From Phycisphaeraceae bacterium (GTDB lineage: Bacteria; Planctomycetota; Phycisphaerae; Phycisphaerales; Zrk34): 64,000 nt of DNA. Within the stretch, counting starts at the first letter, position 1. Each line of letters opens with the position of its first letter. The stretch spans positions 1-64,000 of the forward strand of contig JANQHD010000019.1 of NCBI GenBank assembly GCA_028282805.1, in the 5' to 3' direction. Under the pieces are notes generated by a model. That model was not told the origin of the DNA, did not search any database, and worked only from the letters and a program-made list of their open reading frames with translations. Shown here piece after piece: positions 690 through 63,957 of this stretch. The position numbers and the translations under genes were made by a program.

Positions 690-2651
690 TCATGGTTTGC
701 CGAGGTGTGTTTGCAGGAACAGCGCGACCACGGCGGTGTAGTAGTCGCGGTTGGGTTTTTTGGCGAAGCCGTGGCCCTCGTTGTCGGCGAAGACGGTCCA
801 CACGGTGCGGCCGTGGGCGCGGACGATGCGCGCGATCTGCTCGGCTTCGCTGAAGGGGACGCGCGGGTCGTTCTTGCCGTGCACCACCAGCAGGGCGGAG
901 CGGATCTTGTGCGCGTTGGCGGTGGGGTTGATGCGCTCGAAGACCCTGGCCATCGCCGGGTCGCGTTCGTCGCCGTACTCGACGCGCCGAAGGTCGCGGC
1001 GGTAGTCGGCGGTGTTCTTGAGGAACGTCTGGAAGTTGGCGATGCCGACCACGTCGATGCCGGCGCGCAGGCGGTCGCCGTAGTGGATCAGCGATGCGAG
1101 CACCATGTACCCGCCGTACGATCCGCCGCGCACGGCGACGCGGTCGGCGTCCAGCTCGTCTTGCTCGGCGATCCAGTCGAGCAGGGCGCCGATGTCTTTG
1201 ACCGAGTCTTCGCGCCGCTCTGCGTTGTCGAGCTGGGTGTAGGTCTTGCCGTAGCCCGTCGAGCCGCGCACGTTGGGTTGGAGCACCGCGTAGCCGAGTT
1301 CGAGCAGGTAGAACTGGTTGGTCGTGCTGAGGCCGGGTCGGCGTTGGCCCTCGGGCCCGCCGTGGATGTCGACGACGACCGGCGCGGGGCGCTGGGCGGA
1401 GGCGCCGAGCGGCTTGAAGTAGTAGGCGGGGATCGATCGCCCGTCGAAGCTGGTGTAACGGATCAGTTGGGGTTGCACGAACGTGGCGGTGTCGAGCCCG
1501 CCGACTTCGCTGAAGGTCCAGCGGGTGAGCTTGCCGTCGGACAGCCGCAGGTCGTAGGCGTCGGTCGGGGCGTCGAAGCGTGAGAAGTTGAAACCCAGTC
1601 GTTCGCCGTCGGGCGAGAACTCGAGCGCACTGATCCGGCCCATCGGCAGGTCGATCTTGCGTCGTGCGCCGTCGTCGATCACGTACAGGCCGGTTGCGCC
1701 GTCTTCGTTGGTGGTCAGCGCCAGCCGGCCGGACTGGCGATCGACGGCGATGGCTTCGACGTTCCAGGGGATGTCGGCGGTCAGCGTCGTGTACCGCCCG
1801 GTGTGCAGGTCGAGCCGGGCGAGCCGGCGGAACTCGCCGTGCGCATCGGTGGTGAGGTAGACGCTGCGCCCGTCGTGGCTGAACCGGGGCACGCTGTACG
1901 ACGCGACCGCGTCGGTGGGCGTGGGCAGCCAGCGCCGTCGGCCGGTTTCGATGTCGAAGATCGCGGGGCGGGACTCGGTGACGGAGACGTACCGGATGAG
2001 CAGCAGGTGCTTGCCGTCGGGGGAGAAGTCGTGGGCGTACCAGAAAGCGCCGTCGACGGCCATGAGCAGTCGCGCCGCATCCGGGTGGCGGGGGTCCATG
2101 AGGTACAGGTCGTTGTCGCGGCCGTTGCGTTGGTTGCTGGTGTAGACGAAGCGGCGGCCGTTGGGCTCGATCGCGTGGAGGGTGTGGCGCGAGACGCCGT
2201 CGGTCAGCCGGGTCGTTTGGCCGGTGTCGCGCTCGAAGCGGTGGAGCTGGTAGTTCTCGTCGCCGCCGGTACTCATGCGCAGCAGCATCAGGTTCGGGTC
2301 GCGCGGCACGGCGCGGCCGCTGACCGGTTCGCCGAAGAACGTCAGCTGCTGGCGGCTGGCGCCGGGGGCGGCGACGTGGTGGAGCTGGGCGGTGTCGGCG
2401 AAGCGTGTGCGGACGATCATGCCCTTGCCGTCGGACGACCAGCCCGCGAAGCCCGCGCTGCGCACGGCCTGGTACTGGCGCAGCCGCTCGATCAGCTGCG
2501 GCGGCACGACGGGCACGCCCTGGGCTTCGATCGCGGCGGGGCGGAAGGGGTCGTCGGTTGTTAGCGGGGTGGCGGGGGCGCAGGCGGCGGCCAACAAGCC
2601 GAGCGCCAACAGCGCCAGCGCACGGAATAGGTATCGGGTGGGCGTGATCAT
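690..2651 (-). CDS. S9 family prolyl oligopeptidase-type peptidase, probable lipoprotein
   Basis: This 653-residue protein has the architecture of an S9 serine peptidase: a beta-propeller-like N-terminal half with repeated FSPDG and FSHDG strands, and a C-terminal alpha/beta hydrolase. The nucleophile Ser511 sits in GGSYGGY, and the likely triad partners are Asp595 in GKNDPRVP and His627 in NEGHGFA. The oxyanion region is DIHGGPEG. The N-terminus is hydrophobic and ends in LLAAAC, a weak lipobox, so the protein is probably exported and lipid-anchored at Cys24. It should cleave short peptides in the periplasm. It stands alone and converges on icd. The substrate cannot be read from sequence. 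Confidence 0.9.
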   Translation of the reverse strand: MITPTRYLFRALALLALGLLAAACAPATPLTTDDPFRPAAIEAQGVPVVPPQLIERLRQYQAVRSAGFAGWSSDGKGMIVRTRFADTAQLHHVAAPGASRQQLTFFGEPVSGRAVPRDPNLMLLRMSTGGDENYQLHRFERDTGQTTRLTDGVSRHTLHAIEPNGRRFVYTSNQRNGRDNDLYLMDPRHPDAARLLMAVDGAFWYAHDFSPDGKHLLLIRYVSVTESRPAIFDIETGRRRWLPTPTDAVASYSVPRFSHDGRSVYLTTDAHGEFRRLARLDLHTGRYTTLTADIPWNVEAIAVDRQSGRLALTTNEDGATGLYVIDDGARRKIDLPMGRISALEFSPDGERLGFNFSRFDAPTDAYDLRLSDGKLTRWTFSEVGGLDTATFVQPQLIRYTSFDGRSIPAYYFKPLGASAQRPAPVVVDIHGGPEGQRRPGLSTTNQFYLLELGYAVLQPNVRGSTGYGKTYTQLDNAERREDSVKDIGALLDWIAEQDELDADRVAVRGGSYGGYMVLASLIHYGDRLRAGIDVVGIANFQTFLKNTADYRRDLRRVEYGDERDPAMARVFERINPTANAHKIRSALLVVHGKNDPRVPFSEAEQIARIVRAHGRTVWTVFADNEGHGFAKKPNRDYYTAVVALFLQTHLGKP

Positions 2652-2696
2652 GCCGCTGAGTATAGGGCATGTCGCCGGTCATGCGGCGGGGTTAAG

Positions 2697-3365
2697 ATGT
2701 CGCGCCCGGGGCGAGCGAAAGGGCGGTGGCCGACGGTGGAGTTCCAGGACTATCTCAAGGCGCTGGTGGCGATGCTGGCGGTGGTCAACCCGCTGAGCAT
2801 CAGCCCGGTGTTCCTGTCGATCACCGCGCACCAGGGCGCGGCCCAACGCCGACGCACGGCGCTGGGCGCGGCGCTGGCGGTCACCGTCATACTCATCGTC
2901 ACGGCGCTGCTGGGCGACTGGGTGCTCAAGGCGTTCAGCATCGGCGTGCACTCGTTCAGCGTGGGCGGCGGCGTGCTGCTGATGATGACGGCGATCGCGA
3001 TGCTGCAAGCCAAGGAAGACCCGACGCGTCGGCGGATGGATGAGTCGGAAGATTCGACCGAGCGCTCGGTGACGGTGGTGCCGTTGGCGTTGCCGTTGCT
3101 GGCGGGGCCGGGGTCGTTGACGACGGTGATCATTTACACGCAGCAGGACACCGGCGTGGCGCACCGGCTGGGGTTGTGCGGCGTGGTGGTGGTCGTGGGC
3201 GTGGTGTGCGCCGGCGTGCTGATCGCGGCGACGGGGCTGGGGCGGCTGATCGGGCGCGTGGGCATCAACGTCGCCACGCGTGTGATGGGCATTATTCTCG
3301 CGGCGATCGCGGTGGAGTTCATCACGTTGGGGCTGCGCGGGTTGCTGCCGGGGCTGGCGGGGTAG
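2697..3365 (+). CDS. MarC-family integral membrane protein
   Basis: The protein has about six hydrophobic segments and opens with KALVAMLAVVNPLSISPVFL, which matches the start of MarC (UPF0056) proteins, and has the later family feature PLLAGPGSLTTVI. MarC proteins are inner-membrane proteins of unsettled function; the old link to multiple antibiotic resistance was not upheld. The ATG at 2697 gives 222 residues with an odd basic N-terminus (SRPGRAKGR). A GTG at 2736, preceded by AAAGGG, would give a more usual 209-residue protein and may be the true start. Confidence 0.85.
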   Translation: MSRPGRAKGRWPTVEFQDYLKALVAMLAVVNPLSISPVFLSITAHQGAAQRRRTALGAALAVTVILIVTALLGDWVLKAFSIGVHSFSVGGGVLLMMTAIAMLQAKEDPTRRRMDESEDSTERSVTVVPLALPLLAGPGSLTTVIIYTQQDTGVAHRLGLCGVVVVVGVVCAGVLIAATGLGRLIGRVGINVATRVMGIILAAIAVEFITLGLRGLLPGLAG

Positions 3366-14338: not shown

Positions 14339-14812
14339 ATGGATAACGCCGCTACCCACGTTTACGAGCTCGCCGCGAACCTGGACGATGTGTCCGGCGA
14401 GGTGGTCGGTGATGCGCTGGGCCGGCTGTTGGCCGCGGGGGCGCTCGACGTGTGGGCGACGCCGATCACGATGAAGAAGAACCGCCCGGGCCTGATGCTG
14501 TCGGTGCTGTGCCGGGACGGCGACCGCGATCGGCTGGCGCGGATGATGGTCGAGCTGACGGGCACGTTCGGCGTGCGGCACCGGCCGTGGGATCGGCTGG
14601 TGCTTGACCGCCGGCACGTGACGGTGCAGACCGCTTACGGGCCGATCCGCGTGAAGGTTGGTGCGCTGGGCGGGCGCGACGTGACGAGCAAGGTCGAACA
14701 CGACGACGCGGCCGCGGCGGCGCGCGAGGCGGGGGTGGCGCTGCGGGTCGTGGTCGACGCGGCGGTGGCGGCGTACGATACCACGCGCACCGCGAAGGGA
14801 GGTGACGTGTGA
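14339..14812 (+). CDS. Short LarC-type protein (C-terminal domain only)
   Basis: LarC inserts nickel into the pincer cofactor of lactate racemase-type enzymes. This protein matches only the second half of LarC: ELAANLDDVSGEVVGDALGR, AGALDVWATPITMKKNRPG and VLDRRHVTVQTAYGPIRVKVG. At 157 residues it is well under half the family length, and the His-rich N-terminal part is missing, with no trace of it upstream. It may be a stand-alone domain with a changed role. The stop overlaps the next gene's GTG start by 4 bp (GTGA), so the two are translationally coupled. No larA or larB is nearby. Confidence 0.72.
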   Translation: MDNAATHVYELAANLDDVSGEVVGDALGRLLAAGALDVWATPITMKKNRPGLMLSVLCRDGDRDRLARMMVELTGTFGVRHRPWDRLVLDRRHVTVQTAYGPIRVKVGALGGRDVTSKVEHDDAAAAAREAGVALRVVVDAAVAAYDTTRTAKGGDV

Positions 14813-15336
14813 ATCACGATTACGTCAACCTTCTGGCTGCACTCAGCGACACGATGCGCAACTTCATGATGGCGGCGGGGGTGTTCATCCTCATGGTGCT
14901 GTTCATGGTGAACGCCCGGAAGAAGCTGAAGCGTTCGACAACGAGCGCCGGCCAAAACCTCACGCCGCACGAACGGCTCGAGAAAGCCAAGCAGGCCGAC
15001 GGCACGAAGAACGACCTGCGCACGATGATGGTGGAGCTCGAGGAGTTGAGCCGGGACTTCAGCGCCAAGCTCGACGCGAAGTCGATCCAGCTGCAGAAGC
15101 TGGTGGCCGAGGCCGAGCAGAAGATCGCCGAGCTGCAACGATTGGTCGACGGCGGCGCGGCCCCGCCGGCGCAGGACGACCCGCTGCGCGAGGCCGGGTC
15201 GGCCGACAACACCGCCGACCCGTTGACGCGGAGCGTGTACGACCTTTCCGACGCGGGCCACGACCCCGGCGAGATCGCCACGAAGCTGAGCGAGCCGATC
15301 GGCAAGGTGGAATTGATACTGGCGCTGCGGCAGTAA
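14809..15336 (+). CDS. Single-pass membrane protein with coiled coil and C-terminal helix-turn-helix-like domain (DUF2802-like)
   Basis: The 175-residue protein has one N-terminal helix (about residues 19-35), a long charged coiled coil (about 50-110), a Pro/Ala linker, and a C-terminal segment VYDLSDAGHDPGEIATKLSE that looks like the small helix-turn-helix of DUF2802 proteins. Such proteins are often found near flagellar or secretion genes but have no settled function. The start is GTG at 14809 with a strong GGGAGGTG site and a 4-bp overlap with the LarC-like gene. Confidence 0.7.
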   Translation: MNHDYVNLLAALSDTMRNFMMAAGVFILMVLFMVNARKKLKRSTTSAGQNLTPHERLEKAKQADGTKNDLRTMMVELEELSRDFSAKLDAKSIQLQKLVAEAEQKIAELQRLVDGGAAPPAQDDPLREAGSADNTADPLTRSVYDLSDAGHDPGEIATKLSEPIGKVELILALRQ

Positions 15337-17985: not shown

Positions 17986-18139
17986 GTGAATCGGTGAATC
18001 GGTTGATCGGTCAACTGGTCAATCAGATTGTATTCAGCTAACCCGGCCCGCTGAAGCGGGCCTCGCCGATTGACTGATTGACTAATCGACTGATTGACTA
18101 ATCGACTGATTGACTAATCGACTGATTCACCGATTCACC
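17986..18139. repeat. Octamer-repeat element, copy 1, with 15-bp terminal inverted repeats
   Basis: The element begins GTGAATCGGTGAATC (17986-18000) and ends with its exact complement (18124-18138). Between them are one arm of TCAACTGG/TCAATCAG type units, a GC hairpin GGCCCGCTGAAGCGGGCC (18045-18062), and another arm of GATTGACT/AATCGACT units with an 8-bp period. It encodes no protein. It lies between the end of the lipoprotein gene, whose TGA stop it provides, and the start of the M48 peptidase gene. Related copies are at 45680 and 61389. Confidence 0.85.
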
Positions 18140-19533
18140 GTTCCCAGGTCGATCACGACGTCGCCGTGGCGGTAGAAGTCGACGTTCAGCCGGTTGGCGT
18201 CGATGCTGGTGACGACCAGGCCGTTGAAGCGTTGGGTGTTGCCGATGCGTTTGCGGTCGCCGCGGCCGGGGCTGGCGTACGCGCTGTTTTTGATCTGCTG
18301 CGCGTGGAAGTGGTAGTGCGCCAGCGACGTGTACGCGTCGGTGACCATCTTCTCGGTCGCGTAGTAGATCAGGTCGTGTTTGCGGAGGAACGGCTTGTAC
18401 AACGCCGCCTTGTACGCACCGGTTTCGTCGAGCTTGATCAGCCCGCCGTACTCGGTGGACTTGTCGTGGTGGTCGGCGTCGGCCTGCTTGAACCACGCGC
18501 GGCGGACGTTGGCGTCTTGCATCGCTTCGCTAAGCACGAGGCACGTGGCCAGGTCGGCCCAGCCCAGCTCGCGGTGCCAGTCTTTGAGGCGTTGCGGGTG
18601 GTCGGCGCTGCCGCCGTCGTAGGTCGCGCCCTTGAGGTGGTGTTGCTGGGCGTCGACGCGGGCTTGCAGGCGTGACAACAACTCGGCGCGGCTCTCTCGC
18701 ATCAGCTCGCTGTTGCGCGCGTGCAGGTGCACCAGCACGGGCATGTGGCGCAGCTCCAACCCCACGCGCTGCGCCTCGTCGAGCGCCGCCACCGCCGCGC
18801 TCGCCTTCGACCAGAAACCACGGTAGCTCGAAGTCCGCAGCGTCTGCAGCCAGAGCACCTCTTCCATGTTGTGCGCCACCACGTGCAGTTGCTCGGCCCC
18901 GGCCTTGAGGTCGGTCACCATCGGGCCGGTCGCCTCGGCGCCCCGCAACAGCTTGACGAGCTGTTCGGTGTCGCCGACGAGGCGTACGGTCAGCTGCCAC
19001 GCCGCGGCGCGCTGGCGGGTGTCGGCGGCGTGGTCGCCCTCGTTGACAAACGTCTCGAACACCACGCGCTCGACCGGCCGGCCGGGGTTCAGCTTCTCGA
19101 TCGCAAGCCGCTCCGGCCGTTCGGCGTCGGTGTACGCCACGGCCGGCCGCGCGTAGTTGAGCACCAGCGACGGCGTGAAGTCGGTCCAGTGGCGCTCGAC
19201 GGCCGTGTCGATCAGGTGCCGCAGCGCCGGCCAGTTGTTCATCAGCTTGATGCACGTGGCGAAGTGGCGCTTGGCGTCGGCCTCGTCGTAACGCACGAGC
19301 GCATCGATGGCGTGGGTGCGCATCTCTTCGGGGAAGCCGCGCTGCCACACGGCCTTGCGGAGGTACGCCAGGCGTTTTTCCGAATCGTACAGCTCGGCCT
19401 CGGCCTGACGCGCGGCGGCCAGCCGTTTGTTCGGCGACTCGGTCTTGTCCATCATCACGCCGAGCGGGTTGTCGTACGACTTGGGCCCGCACCCGGCGAC
19501 CAGCAGCATCACGAGAATCAATGAGCGTTTCAC
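18127..19533 (-). CDS. Unknown lipoprotein
   Basis: The 468-residue protein starts at GTG 19533 with the strong site AGGGAGG. The signal peptide ends in the clear lipobox LLVAGC, so it should be lipid-anchored at Cys15. The rest is helical and charged with no family that I recognise; the C-terminal part has AHYHFHAQQIKNS and a strand-rich end FNGLVVTSIDANRLNVDFY, which could be a small separate domain. The last codons (Val-Asn-Arg-stop) lie inside the octamer-repeat element, so the original C-terminus may have been changed by its arrival. Confidence 0.75.
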   Translation of the reverse strand: MKRSLILVMLLVAGCGPKSYDNPLGVMMDKTESPNKRLAAARQAEAELYDSEKRLAYLRKAVWQRGFPEEMRTHAIDALVRYDEADAKRHFATCIKLMNNWPALRHLIDTAVERHWTDFTPSLVLNYARPAVAYTDAERPERLAIEKLNPGRPVERVVFETFVNEGDHAADTRQRAAAWQLTVRLVGDTEQLVKLLRGAEATGPMVTDLKAGAEQLHVVAHNMEEVLWLQTLRTSSYRGFWSKASAAVAALDEAQRVGLELRHMPVLVHLHARNSELMRESRAELLSRLQARVDAQQHHLKGATYDGGSADHPQRLKDWHRELGWADLATCLVLSEAMQDANVRRAWFKQADADHHDKSTEYGGLIKLDETGAYKAALYKPFLRKHDLIYYATEKMVTDAYTSLAHYHFHAQQIKNSAYASPGRGDRKRIGNTQRFNGLVVTSIDANRLNVDFYRHGDVVIDLGTVNR

Positions 19534-44270: not shown

Positions 44271-45665
44271 ATGACGCGAGCCGAGCACAACCCGATGACC
44301 GCCGAGCTCGTCACGCCCGTGATCGAGCAGCTTTTGGCCGATCGGAACGTCGGCCAGATCCGCCAGGCGTTGGCCGAGCTGCGCGACCCGGAGGTGGCCG
44401 ACGTGCTCGAACAGCTCGAGCCCAGGCAGCAGGCGGTCGTGTTCCGGCTCGTGCCGCAGGACCGCCGGCCGGAGATTTTTACCCACCTCGAGCTCGAAGA
44501 CCAGGAAGACCTCGTCGAGGACCTCAACGACGAGCAGGTCGCCGAGATCTTCAACGAGATGGACCCCGACGACCGCGTCGACTTCCTCGAGGACGTCGAC
44601 GAAGAAGTTGCCGAGCAGACGCTGGCCCTGATGGAGCCCGAGGAGCGGGCCGAGACCGAGGCGATCCTCGAGTACCCCGAGGAGTCGGTGGGGCGGGAGA
44701 TGACGCCCGACTTTCTGACCGTGCAACCGCACTGGACGGTCGACGACACGCTGGCGTACATCCGCGAGCAGGGCGAGGACGCCGAGACACTGGACACGCT
44801 GTACGTCGTCGACGACGCGGGCCAGCTGATCGACTACGTGCGGTTGCGTGCGCTGGTGCTCGGCTCGCCGCACGACCGCATCGAAGCGTTGCGCCGGGGC
44901 GACGTGGTGGCGCTCGACGCCCACGACGACCGCGAGCGCGCCGTCGAGGTGATGGAGAAGTACGATTTGCCGGTGATCCCGGTGGTCGACGCGGGCCGGC
45001 TGGTGGGCATCGTGACGTTCGATGACATCGCCGACGTGGCCGAGGAAGAGGTCACCGAGGACATGCAGAAGATGGGCGGCATGGCCGCGCTCGACGAGCC
45101 GTACCGCTCGTCGACGATCTGGGAACTGGTCGTCAAGCGCGTGGTCTGGCTGATGGTGCTGTTCGGCGGGGGGCTGCTGACGGTCTGGGCGATGGGGGGG
45201 TTCCGGGATTCGATCGAAAAATACGTCGTGCTGGCGTTGTTTGTGCCGCTGATCATCGCCTCGGGCGGCAACAGCGGCTCGCAGGCCGCGTCGCTGATGA
45301 TCCGCTCGCTGGCCATCGGCGAACTGCTGGTCGCCGACTGGAAGATGGTGCTGCGGCGGGAGATCGTCTCGGGCCTGCTGCTCGGGTCGATCCTCGGCGT
45401 GTGCGGCCTGGTCTCCGGGGCGGTCGCCGCGTCGCTGGTGGGGGTCGACGACAAGCCGATCTGGCTCTACGGCTTCGCCATCGGCACCGCGGTGGTCGGC
45501 GTGGTCGTGATGGGCACGCTCACCGGGTCGATGCTGCCGTTCCTCATGAAACGCATCGGCCTCGACGAGGCGACCAGCTCCACGCCCTTCGTCGCTACCA
45601 TCGTCGACGTCGCCGGGCTGATTCTCTACTTCGTTGTGACGAACGTGATTTTGGGGATGGGGTAG
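44271..45665 (+). CDS. mgtE: Magnesium transporter MgtE
   Basis: MgtE is a magnesium channel gated by its cytosolic domain. The 464-residue protein has the acidic N domain (LEDQEDLVEDLNDEQVAEIF), two CBS domains at about 140-260 (VGREMTPDFLTV, YDLPVIPVVDAGRLVGIVT), and five C-terminal helices including ASGGNSGSQAASLMIRSLA, the pore signature. It is divergent from carA with 80 bp between starts. The gene is followed by octamer-repeat element copy 2. Confidence 0.95.
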   Translation: MTRAEHNPMTAELVTPVIEQLLADRNVGQIRQALAELRDPEVADVLEQLEPRQQAVVFRLVPQDRRPEIFTHLELEDQEDLVEDLNDEQVAEIFNEMDPDDRVDFLEDVDEEVAEQTLALMEPEERAETEAILEYPEESVGREMTPDFLTVQPHWTVDDTLAYIREQGEDAETLDTLYVVDDAGQLIDYVRLRALVLGSPHDRIEALRRGDVVALDAHDDRERAVEVMEKYDLPVIPVVDAGRLVGIVTFDDIADVAEEEVTEDMQKMGGMAALDEPYRSSTIWELVVKRVVWLMVLFGGGLLTVWAMGGFRDSIEKYVVLALFVPLIIASGGNSGSQAASLMIRSLAIGELLVADWKMVLRREIVSGLLLGSILGVCGLVSGAVAASLVGVDDKPIWLYGFAIGTAVVGVVVMGTLTGSMLPFLMKRIGLDEATSSTPFVATIVDVAGLILYFVVTNVILGMG

Positions 45666-45679
45666 GGGGGCGGGGGGGG

Positions 45680-45814
45680 TAATCAGTCAATCAGTCAATT
45701 GGTCAATCGGCGAGGCCCGCTTCAGCGGGCCGGGTTGACCGCACACAATCTGATTGACCAGTTGACCGATCAACCGATCAACCGATCAACCGATCAACCG
45801 ATTCACCGATTCAC
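45680..45814. repeat. Octamer-repeat element, copy 2 (inverted relative to copy 1)
   Basis: The reverse complement of this stretch matches the element at 17986 over most of its length, including the GC hairpin GGCCCGCTTCAGCGGGCC (45714-45731) with its flanks, the TCAACTGGTCAATCAGATTG block, and the end GTGAATCGGTGAATC. The GATCAACC unit is expanded to four tandem copies. It lies between convergent mgtE and the aminotransferase gene and supplies the stop codon of the latter. Confidence 0.85.
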
Positions 45815-46965
45815 TCTCCCCCCGCCAGCTCGTTGAGCAGGTCGAGCCCGCGAGCCAGCGTGTCGTCGTCACACGCGTAGCTGAGGCGGAAGTGGGTGTC
45901 GCGTTCGGAGAACACGCAGCCGGGGATGATGAGCAATTCTTTTTCGATCGCGCGCTCGACGAACTGTGTGGCGGTTTCGTCAGTGGGCACTTTTGGGAAC
46001 GCGTAGAACGCACCGCCGGGGGGGGTGAGCTCGAAGCGGTCGGCCAGCGCCTTGACCACCATGTCGCGCTTGCGGCGGTAGGCGGCGACCTGGTCGGCCA
46101 TGTCCACGCCCAACGCCGCGACGCCCGCGTGCTGCACCATCGACGGGGCGCACACGAACGTGTACTGCTGCAGCTTGGTCATGGGCTCGACGATCGGCTT
46201 GGGGCCCATCGCGTAGCCGAGGCGCCAGCCGGTCATGGCGTAGGTCTTCGAGTGGCCGCGCAGCACGAGCACTTGGTCGCTGACCGACGCCGGCGACGGG
46301 CTGCGCGGGCCCGTGGGGCTGTCGGCTTTTTCGTAACAGAACTCGTCGTAGATCTCGTCGCTCAGCAGCAGCACGCCGCGCCGCTCGCACAGCTCGACCA
46401 GCGCCGCCATCGCGCCCGGCGTGGTCACCACCCCCGTCGGGTTCGACGGGCTGGCCAGCAGCAGCAGCTTCGTCCGCTCGGTCATGTGCGGCTCGACGCG
46501 CGCCGCGGTCATCTGAAAGTCCGGGTACGTGTCGACGAACACCGCCTCGCCGCCCGCCAGCGTGACCAGGTGCTTGTACATCACAAAGTACGGGTCGGGC
46601 ACCAGCACCTGGTCGCCGGGTTCGATCAGCGTCTGCAAAGCGAGCAGCAACCCGCCGCTGACGCCCGAGGTGATCAGGCAGCCGTAGTCCGCCCACCGGC
46701 CGTCGGTCTGGTAGTCGGCGTTGAACCGCTCACACACCGCGTCGCGCAGCGCGGCGATGCCCTGGGTCTGCGTGTAGCTGTTGTGGCCCGCCTGGATCGC
46801 CTCGGCGGCGGCGTCCTTGATCGGCTGGGGCACGTCGAAGTGCGGCTGGCCGATCGACAGGTTGATCGGGTTTTCGATCTTCGCGGCCAGGTCGAAGACC
46901 CTGCGGATCCCGCTGGCGTCGATCCCGCGCAAACGCTGGGCGATCATGGCGTCGTAGTCGATCAT
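45811..46965 (-). CDS. Class I/II PLP-dependent aminotransferase
   Basis: This 384-residue enzyme has NLSIGQPHFDVP near the start, LASPSNPTG, and the PLP lysine in RGHSKTYAMTGWRLGYA, with RLSYACDDD carrying the substrate arginine at the end. It is closest in pattern to aspartate- or aromatic-type aminotransferases; the substrate cannot be told. ATG 46965 is preferred to one 13 codons earlier. The stop codon TGA is part of the octamer-repeat element. Confidence 0.92.
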   Translation of the reverse strand: MIDYDAMIAQRLRGIDASGIRRVFDLAAKIENPINLSIGQPHFDVPQPIKDAAAEAIQAGHNSYTQTQGIAALRDAVCERFNADYQTDGRWADYGCLITSGVSGGLLLALQTLIEPGDQVLVPDPYFVMYKHLVTLAGGEAVFVDTYPDFQMTAARVEPHMTERTKLLLLASPSNPTGVVTTPGAMAALVELCERRGVLLLSDEIYDEFCYEKADSPTGPRSPSPASVSDQVLVLRGHSKTYAMTGWRLGYAMGPKPIVEPMTKLQQYTFVCAPSMVQHAGVAALGVDMADQVAAYRRKRDMVVKALADRFELTPPGGAFYAFPKVPTDETATQFVERAIEKELLIIPGCVFSERDTHFRLSYACDDDTLARGLDLLNELAGGE

Positions 46966-47053
46966 GGCACTCAAGGTACGTTCTTCATGGTTAAAAGAAA
47001 ACACCGCGCCGTTGGAAGGGCACGGTGTTGGGTGCGTTCGGTTGCCGGCGGGT

Positions 47054-55453: not shown

Positions 55454-55474
55454 TCTCCCACCCATCGGGGGAGT

Positions 55475-55603
55475 AATGACCAATGTTCAATGCCCAATGA
55501 CCAATCAAAACCCAATGCTCAAGCACCAATTCAATGCGAGCACTTGAGGCGTTCGGTCATTGGGTTTTGATTGGTTATTGGTGATTGGGAATTGGACATT
55601 CCG
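55475..55603. repeat. CAATGACC-rich hairpin element, copy 1
   Basis: The stretch is built from ACCAAT/CAATG words. A 22-bp arm at 55496-55517 is matched by its complement at 55558-55579 with one mismatch, around a loop containing AATTCAATGCG and GCACTTGAGG. The element ends in GGACATTCCGC. A related copy with the same ends and the same loop words is at 63834. It lies between convergent dus and yihY and encodes nothing. Confidence 0.85.
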
Positions 55604-60927: not shown

Positions 60928-61377
60928 ATGCAGAAAAAGGCGCCGCTCCGGCGTCTGTATGCACCGATGGCCCAGTCACCCGAACAGCCCGAGACCGGTT
61001 CGGACGCAAACGCCGTCGAGGGATCGAACGGCCAGGCCCCGCCGCGCCGCCGGACCCACGTGCTGTACCCCAACTACTACACGTGGTTCGTGCTGCTCAG
61101 CGCGCTGGACGTGATGTTCACGCGCGTGATCCTCTCGCCGACCTACCGCGGCCGCGAGCTGAACTGGGTCGCCAACTACGTGCTGCAACGCTGGGACGTG
61201 ACGGGGCTGGTGATCTACAAGTTCCTGCTCGCGGCGTTCGTGGTGGTGATCTGCGAGTACGTCGGCCGACGCCGCCACCGCACGGGCCTGCGGCTGGCGC
61301 GGTGGGCGGTGCTGATCGGCTGCGTGCCCGTGGCCGTGCAGGTGTACCTGTTCCTCACGCACCTGCCGCACATGTGA
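60928..61377 (+). CDS. Small membrane protein, DUF5658-like
   Basis: The 149-residue protein has three helices: YTWFVLLSALDVMFTRVIL, VIYKFLLAAFVVVICEY and WAVLIGCVPVAVQVYLFLT. The pattern of an LDxxFT helix, then RELNWVANYVL, then a lysine-containing helix, is like DUF5658 proteins of unknown function. The N-terminal 50 residues are low-complexity. It lies 3 bp behind the M42 peptidase gene. The octamer-repeat element copy 3 follows. Confidence 0.68.
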   Translation: MQKKAPLRRLYAPMAQSPEQPETGSDANAVEGSNGQAPPRRRTHVLYPNYYTWFVLLSALDVMFTRVILSPTYRGRELNWVANYVLQRWDVTGLVIYKFLLAAFVVVICEYVGRRRHRTGLRLARWAVLIGCVPVAVQVYLFLTHLPHM

Positions 61378-61388
61378 TCGCGGGGAGC

Positions 61389-61560
61389 CGATCGGTCAAT
61401 CAGTCAATCAGTCAATCAGTCAATCGGTCAATCAGTCAATCGGTCAATCAGTCAATCAGTCAATTGGTCATGCGGGCCGAATATCATCTGATTGACCAGT
61501 TGACCAGTTGACCAGTTGACCAGTTGACCAGTTGACCAGTTGACCGATTCACTGATTCAC
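61389..61560. repeat. Octamer-repeat element, copy 3 (longest tandem arrays)
   Basis: The left arm has about nine tandem units of GTCAATCA or GTCAATCG; the right arm has about seven units of CCAGTTGA. The spacer keeps CGGGCCGAAT and CTGATTGACC but lacks the full GC hairpin of copies 1 and 2. The right end GATTCACTGATTCAC (61546-61560) differs by one base from the other copies and supplies the xerD stop codon. It lies between convergent genes. Confidence 0.85.
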
Positions 61561-62456
61561 GCCCGGGGGTGGTGTTGCTTGACGATGGCGTGCAGGCGTT
61601 CGCGGTCGACGTGGGTGTAGACCTGGGTGGTGGTGACCTTGGCGTGGCCGAGCAGTTCCTGCACGACGCGCAGGTCGGCGCCGCCGGCGAGCATGTGCGT
61701 GGCGAAGCTGTGGCGCAGGGTGTGCGGGTGCACGCCCGACACGCCGGCGAGCTTCGCGTACTTCGTGACCAGGTGCCAGATGCGGAAGCGGTCGACCGGC
61801 GTGCCGCGCCGCGTGAGGAACAGCGCGTCGGTGGGGCGGTCTTCGCGCGCCAGCTCCGGCCGCAGCTCCCGGCGGTAGCGCGCGATCCATTGCAGCGCCG
61901 GCCGGCCGATCGGCACGATGCGCTGCTTGTTGCCCTTGCCGGTGACCTTGACCACGCCCAGCTCGTCGTGCAGGTCGGCCAGCTGGACCTGGCCGATCTC
62001 GCTGGCGCGGCAGCCGGTGGCGTACATCAGTTCCAAGATCGCCCGGTCGCGCAGCGCCATCGGTTCGGCCGGGTCGATCGCCTCGAACATCGCCTCGATG
62101 TGTTTGGTGTGGCAGACCACCGGCACGGTGCGCCAGGTCTTGGGCGTTTCCAGCAGGGCCGACGGGTCGTCTTCGAGTTGGCCGTTAGCTGTGAGGAACC
62201 GGCAGAACATGCGGATGGCCGACAGGTGGCGGGCGATGGACTTGCTGCTCAGCCCGTCGGCGCGCAGCCGCTTGAGGTGGTCGACGAGCAGGGGGAAGCT
62301 GATCGACCGCAAGTCGTTGATGCCCCGCTCGATGAGGTACCCGGTGAGCTGGCGCAGGTCGAGTTCGTACGCGGACAGCGTGTGCGGCGACAGGCCACAC
62401 TCGACGCGCAAGTAAGCGAGGAAGTCACGTACCGGTTGGCTGTAGGGCTCGGCCAT
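61557..62456 (-). CDS. XerC/XerD-family tyrosine recombinase
   Basis: The 299-residue protein has the length and layout of Xer recombinases that resolve chromosome dimers at dif. The catalytic residues are Arg150 (TGCRASEI), Lys174, His245 and Arg248 (HPHTLRHSFA), His271 and Tyr280 (LLGHAKVTTTQVYTH). It looks XerD-like. The ATG at 62456 is chosen; the frame runs 58 codons further upstream in low-complexity sequence. No mobile element surrounds it other than the repeat at its 3' end. No dif site was recognised nearby. Confidence 0.92.
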   Translation of the reverse strand: MAEPYSQPVRDFLAYLRVECGLSPHTLSAYELDLRQLTGYLIERGINDLRSISFPLLVDHLKRLRADGLSSKSIARHLSAIRMFCRFLTANGQLEDDPSALLETPKTWRTVPVVCHTKHIEAMFEAIDPAEPMALRDRAILELMYATGCRASEIGQVQLADLHDELGVVKVTGKGNKQRIVPIGRPALQWIARYRRELRPELAREDRPTDALFLTRRGTPVDRFRIWHLVTKYAKLAGVSGVHPHTLRHSFATHMLAGGADLRVVQELLGHAKVTTTQVYTHVDRERLHAIVKQHHPRA

Positions 62457-62685
62457 GCACGGTGACGCCGATCGGGGGTTGGTCCGCGCCGCCGAGCAGG
62501 CGCTGGAAGTGAGGGCAGCGGCGGTAGTCGCCGAAACAGTCGCCGAAGGCGTCGGAGAGGTGGCCGAGGGTGAAGTGGCCGTTGCACGACGCGTCCCCGT
62601 GCTCGACAAACGGGCAAGTCCCCACATCATGCAACGAAAGGCGTCTCACCTGCGGTTCTCCTTCGGCTTCGCCACCGAAGCTCAT
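62425..62685 (-). CDS. Small four-cysteine protein overlapping the xerD start
   Basis: This 86-residue frame (start at ATG 62685; a GTG at 62751 is possible) has VGTCPFVEHGDASCNGHF, HLSDAFGDCFGDYRRCPHFQ and four cysteines in a C-x9-C-x15-C-x6-C pattern. It looks like a genuine small metal-binding protein of a kind I recall in Phycisphaerae, and the competing frames here are low-complexity. Its 3' end overlaps the xerD start by 32 bp in another frame, so the two would be translationally linked. Confidence 0.55.
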   Translation of the reverse strand: MSFGGEAEGEPQVRRLSLHDVGTCPFVEHGDASCNGHFTLGHLSDAFGDCFGDYRRCPHFQRLLGGADQPPIGVTVHGRALQPTGT

Positions 62686-62761: not shown

Positions 62762-63838
62762 ATGCCAGACCGACCACAAAACCCGACGAGCGGCTGGACC
62801 GGCGGCCAATACAGCGTGTGGCGCGCGGGCTTGGCCGCCGTGGTCGCCGGGGCGTGTGTTCAGTGGTGGGTCGGCGGCGAGTTGGTTTGGCCGGTGGTTA
62901 TCGGCGGGTGGTGCGCGGCGCTGTGCCTGGCGGTCGGCTGGTTCGACCGCGCGGCGGCGCTGGCGCTGCTGGCGGGCATGGGTTGGGTGTGCGCCGTTCG
63001 TGGTTATTTCGATGCCAGCGACGTGCCGGCCGCGTTCTGCCTGTGTGTGCACCTGGCCACGCCGCCGTCGCCGTACGGTGCGCTGTCGGCGCGTGGGCGT
63101 GGTGCGCCCGCGGGGCGTTGGGCGATGCCCGCCGCGGTGGGGCACGCGGCGTGGTTGCTGGTCGTGCTGCTCGTCGCGCTGTTTGGTGTGGTGCTCTGGC
63201 AACAGGGGCGGGTCACCTTGGCTGTGGTGCTGGTCGCGTACGTGCCGGCGGTGCTGGTCGCGCCGCTGCGCCCGTGGGCGTGGTGCGCGGTGCTGGTGTT
63301 GATGGTGTGCGCCGCCGGGTATCAAGGGTACGCCGGTCGGCTGCGCGTGCTCGAGTTGGGCCTGGTTTGGGTGCACCTGCTTTGCGCCGACCCGGCCTGG
63401 CTCAAACCGAAGCGCGCCGGGCAAAGCGAGTGGTTGTTTTACGACGGGGCGTGCGGCCTGTGTCACGCAGCGGTGCGGTTCGTGTTGGCCGAAGACCGCG
63501 CGGGCGACGCGTTCCGCTTTGCGCCGATCGGCGGCGGTGCGTTCGAACGCGAGCTCAGCGAAGCCCAACGCGCCGGCCTGCCCGACAGCGTGGTCGTGTT
63601 GACCGAAGCCGGCGCGGTGCTGACGCGCTCGCGGGCCGTGGCGCACATGCTGACGCGGCTCGGCGGCCTGTGGCGCGTGTGCGGTTGGCTGTTGTGGTGG
63701 GTTCCGCGCCCGCTGCGCGACGGCGGTTACGTGCTGTTGGCCAAGGTGCGCCGACGCTTGCTCAAAGCGCCGGCAGACCCGTGCCCGGTGGGTGACGCCG
63801 AACTTCGTGAACGGTTTGATTTGCGGGGGAAAGAATGA
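62762..63838 (+). CDS. Membrane protein with C-terminal DCC-type thiol-disulfide oxidoreductase domain
   Basis: The 358-residue protein has about six helices in the first 215 residues and then a DUF393/DCC domain: WLFYDGACGLCHAAVRFVL holds the CxxC motif after which the family is named, followed by FRFAPIGGG and VVLTEAGAVLTRSRAV. It may shuttle electrons or form disulfides at the membrane. Its stop TGA is the first TGA of the CAATGACC-type repeat. It is divergent from the small four-cysteine gene. Confidence 0.85.
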   Translation: MPDRPQNPTSGWTGGQYSVWRAGLAAVVAGACVQWWVGGELVWPVVIGGWCAALCLAVGWFDRAAALALLAGMGWVCAVRGYFDASDVPAAFCLCVHLATPPSPYGALSARGRGAPAGRWAMPAAVGHAAWLLVVLLVALFGVVLWQQGRVTLAVVLVAYVPAVLVAPLRPWAWCAVLVLMVCAAGYQGYAGRLRVLELGLVWVHLLCADPAWLKPKRAGQSEWLFYDGACGLCHAAVRFVLAEDRAGDAFRFAPIGGGAFERELSEAQRAGLPDSVVVLTEAGAVLTRSRAVAHMLTRLGGLWRVCGWLLWWVPRPLRDGGYVLLAKVRRRLLKAPADPCPVGDAELRERFDLRGKE

Positions 63839-63957
63839 CCAATGTTCAATGATCAATGACCAATCAAACTCCAATGCCCAATTTCCAATTCAATGCGGGC
63901 ACTTGGAGCATTTGGGCATTGATTGGTCATTGGGTATTGTGCATTGAACATTCCGCC
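63834..63957. repeat. CAATGACC-rich hairpin element, copy 2
   Basis: It begins AATGACCAATGTTCAATG and ends CATTGAACATTCCGC, so the ends are inverted repeats, and an inner arm AATGACCAATCAAA pairs with TTGATTGGTCATT-like DNA around 63920. The loop has AATTCAATGCGGGCACTTGG as in copy 1 at 55475. The first TGA is the stop codon of the DCC gene. Confidence 0.85.

Follow-up and report, generated by a model that had tools for sequence, protein, structure and literature searches.

Inverted arrays of 7- and 8-bp units at native stop codons in a Phycisphaeraceae genome and IVP-bearing members of the same families

Short tandem heptamers (STRR repeats) are found between genes in cyanobacteria. In Beggiatoaceae, the intergenic, stop-containing heptamer TAACTGA forms direct arrays mostly before start codons; 13 sets overlap upstream stop codons and one inverted repeat was reported (PMC4679880). 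REP and REPIN sequences are extragenic palindromes (PMC12306157, PMC3116915), and REPs can sit within 15 nt of stops (PMC12306157). Some copies of the Coxiella elements QMITE1 and QMITE2 overlap the 3' ends of genes, by 2–50 bp and 1–10 bp, respectively (PMC5896051). The intervening sequences (IVS) of 23S rRNA in Coxiella and Leptospira contain an S23/IVP ORF within a stem of terminal inverted repeats, and their mobility has been proposed (PMC4990558). It is chiefly from these sequences, whose function and origin are still called unclear (PMC4990558), that the S23/IVP four-helix-bundle proteins are known.

Elements in the window and the ends of the adjacent proteins

The window, namely the whole analysed stretch of 64,000 nucleotides, contains three octamer elements and two heptamer elements of the same inverted-arm design (Table 1). 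Octamer elements consist of a short core flanked by two inverted arrays of the 8-bp unit GTCAATCG and its variants, the outermost units often being GTGAATCG. Two of the three octamer elements in the window have a GGCCCGCTGAAGCGGGCC hairpin in their core. Predicted RNA folds were far stronger than those of shuffled controls (z -5.2 and -11.3 for the two octamer elements folded). The second family has the unit CAATGAC and is represented more than twelve times in the genome from which the window was taken (G000). The window copies of both families are gene-less; they are short repeated elements with terminal inverted repeats and without a transposase gene, as is characteristic of MITEs.

Table 1. 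Positions of the repeat elements in the window and of the stop codons lying within them
Feature	Position	Strand	Comment
Octamer element 1	17986–18138		Core with GGCCCGCTGAAGCGGGCC hairpin between a short left arm and an inverted right arm; termini GTGAATC...GATTCAC
Lipoprotein gene TGA stop	18127–18129	-	Gene 18127–19533 (-); in second GTGAATC unit; native protein length
Octamer element 2	45677–45815		Between mgtE (44271–45665, +) and aminotransferase gene (45811–47004, -), a convergent pair; fold z -5.2
Aminotransferase gene TGA stop	45811–45813	-	In first GTGAATC unit; orthologue ends at about the same place
Octamer element 3	61386–61560		Between DUF5658 gene (60928–61377, +) and xerD (61557–62630, -); near-perfect arms, short core; fold z -11.3
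xerD TGA stop	61557–61559	-	In first GTGAATC unit; protein ends in HHPRA, like E. coli XerD
Heptamer (CAATGAC) element	55473–55601		Second family, same inverted-arm design as octamer elements
Heptamer (CAATGAC) element	63832–63955		Directly on 3' end of DCC1-like gene (62762–63838, +)
DCC1-like gene TGA stop	63836–63838	+	Inside first heptamer unit GAATGACC

A check of the sequence confirmed the preliminary description in that the stops of the aminotransferase, xerD and lipoprotein genes all lie in terminal GTGAATC units of octamer elements. The first GTGA is used in the aminotransferase gene (TGA within the outermost unit, 45808–45814) and in xerD (outermost unit, 61554–61560). In the lipoprotein gene the second one is used: the outermost unit (18132–18138) is read as Val-Asn-Arg, and the TGA lies in the next unit (18124–18130). 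One more GTGAATC (14809–14815) was found at a gene stop (14812) in the window, with no array nearby.

The C-termini of the three proteins were compared with those of related proteins. Most aminotransferase orthologues from relatives have their last residue no more than a few positions from that of the window protein, and the alignment of XerD (C-terminus HHPRA) with the end of the E. coli protein includes the final residue. The lipoprotein orthologues end in GTIRR, GTIYR or GTIVR, level with GTVNR of the protein in the window, and nearly all of them have a conserved final arginine level with the end of Val-Asn-Arg. According to this alignment, the three residues read from the outer unit belong to the native length of the lipoprotein. 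Because all three proteins end where their orthologues or homologues end, the array TGA is judged to be the native stop in these three named genes. The preliminary description held that the element supplies the stop; the stop does lie in the element, but a better wording is that the outermost in-frame TGA of the array serves as the gene's native stop.

Octamer and heptamer copies across the genome

Octamer copies were gathered by pattern and DNA searches of the window's own genome (3.9 Mb, 56 contigs). Element boundaries were set by extending a degenerate consensus, and gene ends were taken from a home-made codon-model caller, with a gene score of at least 40 for the ends facing an element. 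About 38 octamer elements or arm pairs were found, and the true number may be higher because several contigs start or end in these arrays. The copies are also present in tandem and divergent gaps.

Forty-one gene 3' ends face an octamer element. In 20 of them the stop lies inside the element (-20 to 0 relative to its boundary), 30 lie no further than +11 bp from the boundary, and 11 (about a quarter) have the element 15–150 bp away from the stop. Gene 5' ends behave differently: 22 of the 23 facing an element are outside it (+4 to +177), and the remaining one, at -79, lies at a chance-extended boundary (Mann–Whitney p = 4e-5 for the distances of 41 vs. 23 ends). The preference of element ends for stop codons, suspected in the preliminary description, holds genome-wide and in both repeat families, octamer and heptamer; the contrary result named there, a genome-wide set without such a preference, is at odds with these counts.

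By hand count of the octamer set, the in-frame stop falls within the first unit in 15 cases and within the second in 3. The motif GTGAATC[A/G] lies across the stop in 8/41 element-facing genes compared with 3/128 others (p = 0.0006). Stops were found to be in register with the octamer array above chance (p = 0.012), a result that is only modestly significant and relies on boundaries that hinge on the degenerate consensus. Since element-free convergent gaps are frequently short as well, nearness to 3' ends is partly expected; the overlap of the stop in the array register is not. Similar stop overlap was found in the heptamer family, namely at the DCC1-like gene in the window and at loci L166, L168, L170, L182 and L188 elsewhere. 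In L165, L168 and L188 the TGA stop is part of the terminal GAATGACC unit; in L182 GAA TAA stands at the position of the TGA. The register of the stop with the heptamer array was above chance, with p = 0.00025.

Single-arm GTGAATC arrays located after GCTTG between divergent genes (L054:1968–2003 and L056:1970–2005) possibly represent another kind of repeat. A wider contig scan of other genomes gave mostly chance matches and a few Planctomycetota and Nitrospiria elements. Octamer arrays of GTGAATCG were noted in other Planctomycetota and in one Nitrospiria genome (L204, L192, L210, L198, L213), and the stop TGA seems to lie in the first unit of the L204 array.

PF05635 genes between inverted arrays

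Each of the two window families includes a gene-bearing member in the same genome, since a gene of the 23S rRNA IVP family (PF05635) is flanked by octamer arms in L045 (E 4e-30) and by heptamer arms in L252 (39.9 bits, over the cut-off). In these two loci the ORF is located inside an inverted-repeat stem; in the gene-less window copies it is absent. The arms recur in these two larger copies. In L061, a 276-aa ORF (2031–2861, minus strand) lies between inverted octamer arms and shows a weak GIY-YIG match (18.4 bits, below the cut-off of 22.6).

Matches to PF05635 were found nine times in the window's own genome, in 39/61 genomes searched (own included) and in 0/14 controls. Many of the IVP loci examined contain inverted 7/8-mer arrays whose units differ between loci. 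Inverted flanks exceeded the 95th percentile of control loci in 30/45 IVP loci (p = 2e-9), and 15/45 had no clear inverted flanks in this automatic test. The sites examined were next to protein genes or in the gaps separating them, after tRNA-like sequence, or within a dnaE-like ORF, and none of them was an insertion in a 23S rRNA gene. IVP elements are often situated directly behind stops within operons, for example between groES and groEL or atpH and atpA (gene names read by eye from translated flanks), and these two sites recur in several genera. In IVP elements, too, the stop was in the array register above chance (p = 0.00015, 26 usable loci).

Presence and absence could be compared between congeners. 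Within one genus, the groES–groEL gap measures 65 bp in G009 and G014, whereas in G018 and G022 it contains an IVP element and is about 450–465 bp long (L266 and L267 vs. L265 and L268). Around the element only about 3 + 20 bp of spacer are left over, and this loss of spacer could be a lineage-specific shortening. In addition, an IVP element was found at approximately the same site within a dnaE-like gene of G014 and G036 (L285, L288) and is absent from G009 and G040. The host reading frame is open through the element, with zero stops, which is in line with selection on stop-bearing arms.

Origin of the elements and comparison with known systems

These characteristics allow us to assume, with moderate confidence, that the elements are MITE-like, non-autonomous, gene-less relatives of an IVP-bearing inverted-repeat element, which selection has retained at 3' ends and which became joined to native stops via microhomology, either at insertion or through later deletion. 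The full form would be a mobile element in which a PF05635 gene, encoding a four-helix-bundle protein, is flanked by arrays of a 7- or 8-bp unit in inverted orientation, and its mobility would be driven by the IVP protein or by another enzyme. Many units hold TGA, TAG or TAA, and the 7/8-bp period would quickly put a stop in frame. Such an element would persist mostly at gene 3' ends because anywhere else it would break the gene; selection against insertion within genes explains the 3' bias. At a 3' end, the outermost array unit would be fused to the gene's own stop codon via a short stretch of sequence, such as GTGA or AATGA, common to the unit and that stop, acting when the element was inserted or when leftover spacer was deleted later, and the register with native stops suggests microhomology of this kind. 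Further erosion would be halted by selection once it reached the stop codon or, on sides facing a start, before it reached the Shine–Dalgarno region.

The first-unit position of 15 of the 18 hand-counted in-element stops, the same register in several families and the recurrence of the groES–groEL and atpH–atpA sites could also be accounted for by target-specific insertion, in which the element end would recognise TGA (or GTGA/AATGA) and stop codons would be merely a tolerated subset of targets. However, all three stop codons (TGA, TAA and TAG) occur in or beside arrays and units vary by family, so that no single target fits them all, and many element ends have no stop; we consider this alternative unlikely. 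To the same degree, it is improbable that selection acted on its own, with random insertion, loss of in-gene copies, survival of stop-rich arrays at 3' ends and the register as a by-product. The asymmetry between 3' and 5' ends, the compactness of convergent gaps even without elements and the IVP elements lying inside the dnaE-like gene without a host-frame stop are consistent with it, but by itself it leaves native-length C-termini with the native stop in the array register unexplained.

It is very unlikely that the elements evolved at 3' ends as regulatory features, that is, bidirectional terminators or RNA-processing hairpins. The strong hairpins and the many convergent neighbours would suit such a role, but TCGCC or CGGGTT, not the T-run of an intrinsic terminator, comes after the core hairpin, copies are also located in tandem and divergent gaps, and the IVP-bearing copies and the differences between congeners point to mobile DNA. 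Trimming or tailoring of C-termini through insertion, as proposed in the preliminary description, is the least credible, and for the three named genes it was rejected: stop codons do fall inside the elements, but the aminotransferase, XerD (against E. coli) and the lipoprotein are of native length, with orthologues or homologues whose ends differ from theirs by a few residues at most.

The proposed relation of the window copies to an IVP-bearing element can tentatively be extended: PF05635 genes might represent a widespread class of bacterial mobile elements with concertedly evolving inverted 7/8-mer arrays, which would use stop codons, or stop-like sequence shared with the unit, as landing sites in operons and would leave gene-less derivatives like those in the window. 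We found no account of operon-located IVP genes flanked by inverted tandem arrays in the literature searched (open-licence papers). The location of PF05635 genes in inverted micro-arrays at stops in core operons, where some congeners have them and others do not, provides a testable mobile-element context for this protein family. It also accounts for short repeats that would otherwise pass for intergenic noise without explanation and illustrates how an element can share a stop codon while the protein remains unchanged.

Among the known systems, the cyanobacterial STRR repeats are similar to the elements described here in being short intergenic tandem heptamers; to our knowledge, they do not form inverted-arm elements with an IVP gene. 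The REP and REPIN sequences are likewise extragenic palindromes near stops but lack tandem micro-arrays. The Beggiatoaceae TAACTGA repeats share stop-containing intergenic units that overlap stops, arranged there in direct arrays and here in inverted arms. The Coxiella QMITEs are also short and non-autonomous, with inverted repeats and some 3'-end overlaps, whereas the arms of the present elements are tandem micro-arrays without an assigned transposase family. The 23S rRNA IVS share with the gene-bearing copies an S23/IVP ORF within an inverted-repeat stem; the elements described here, however, occupy intergenic sites of protein genes and operons, have arms built as tandem 7/8-mer arrays of many units, and include gene-less copies.
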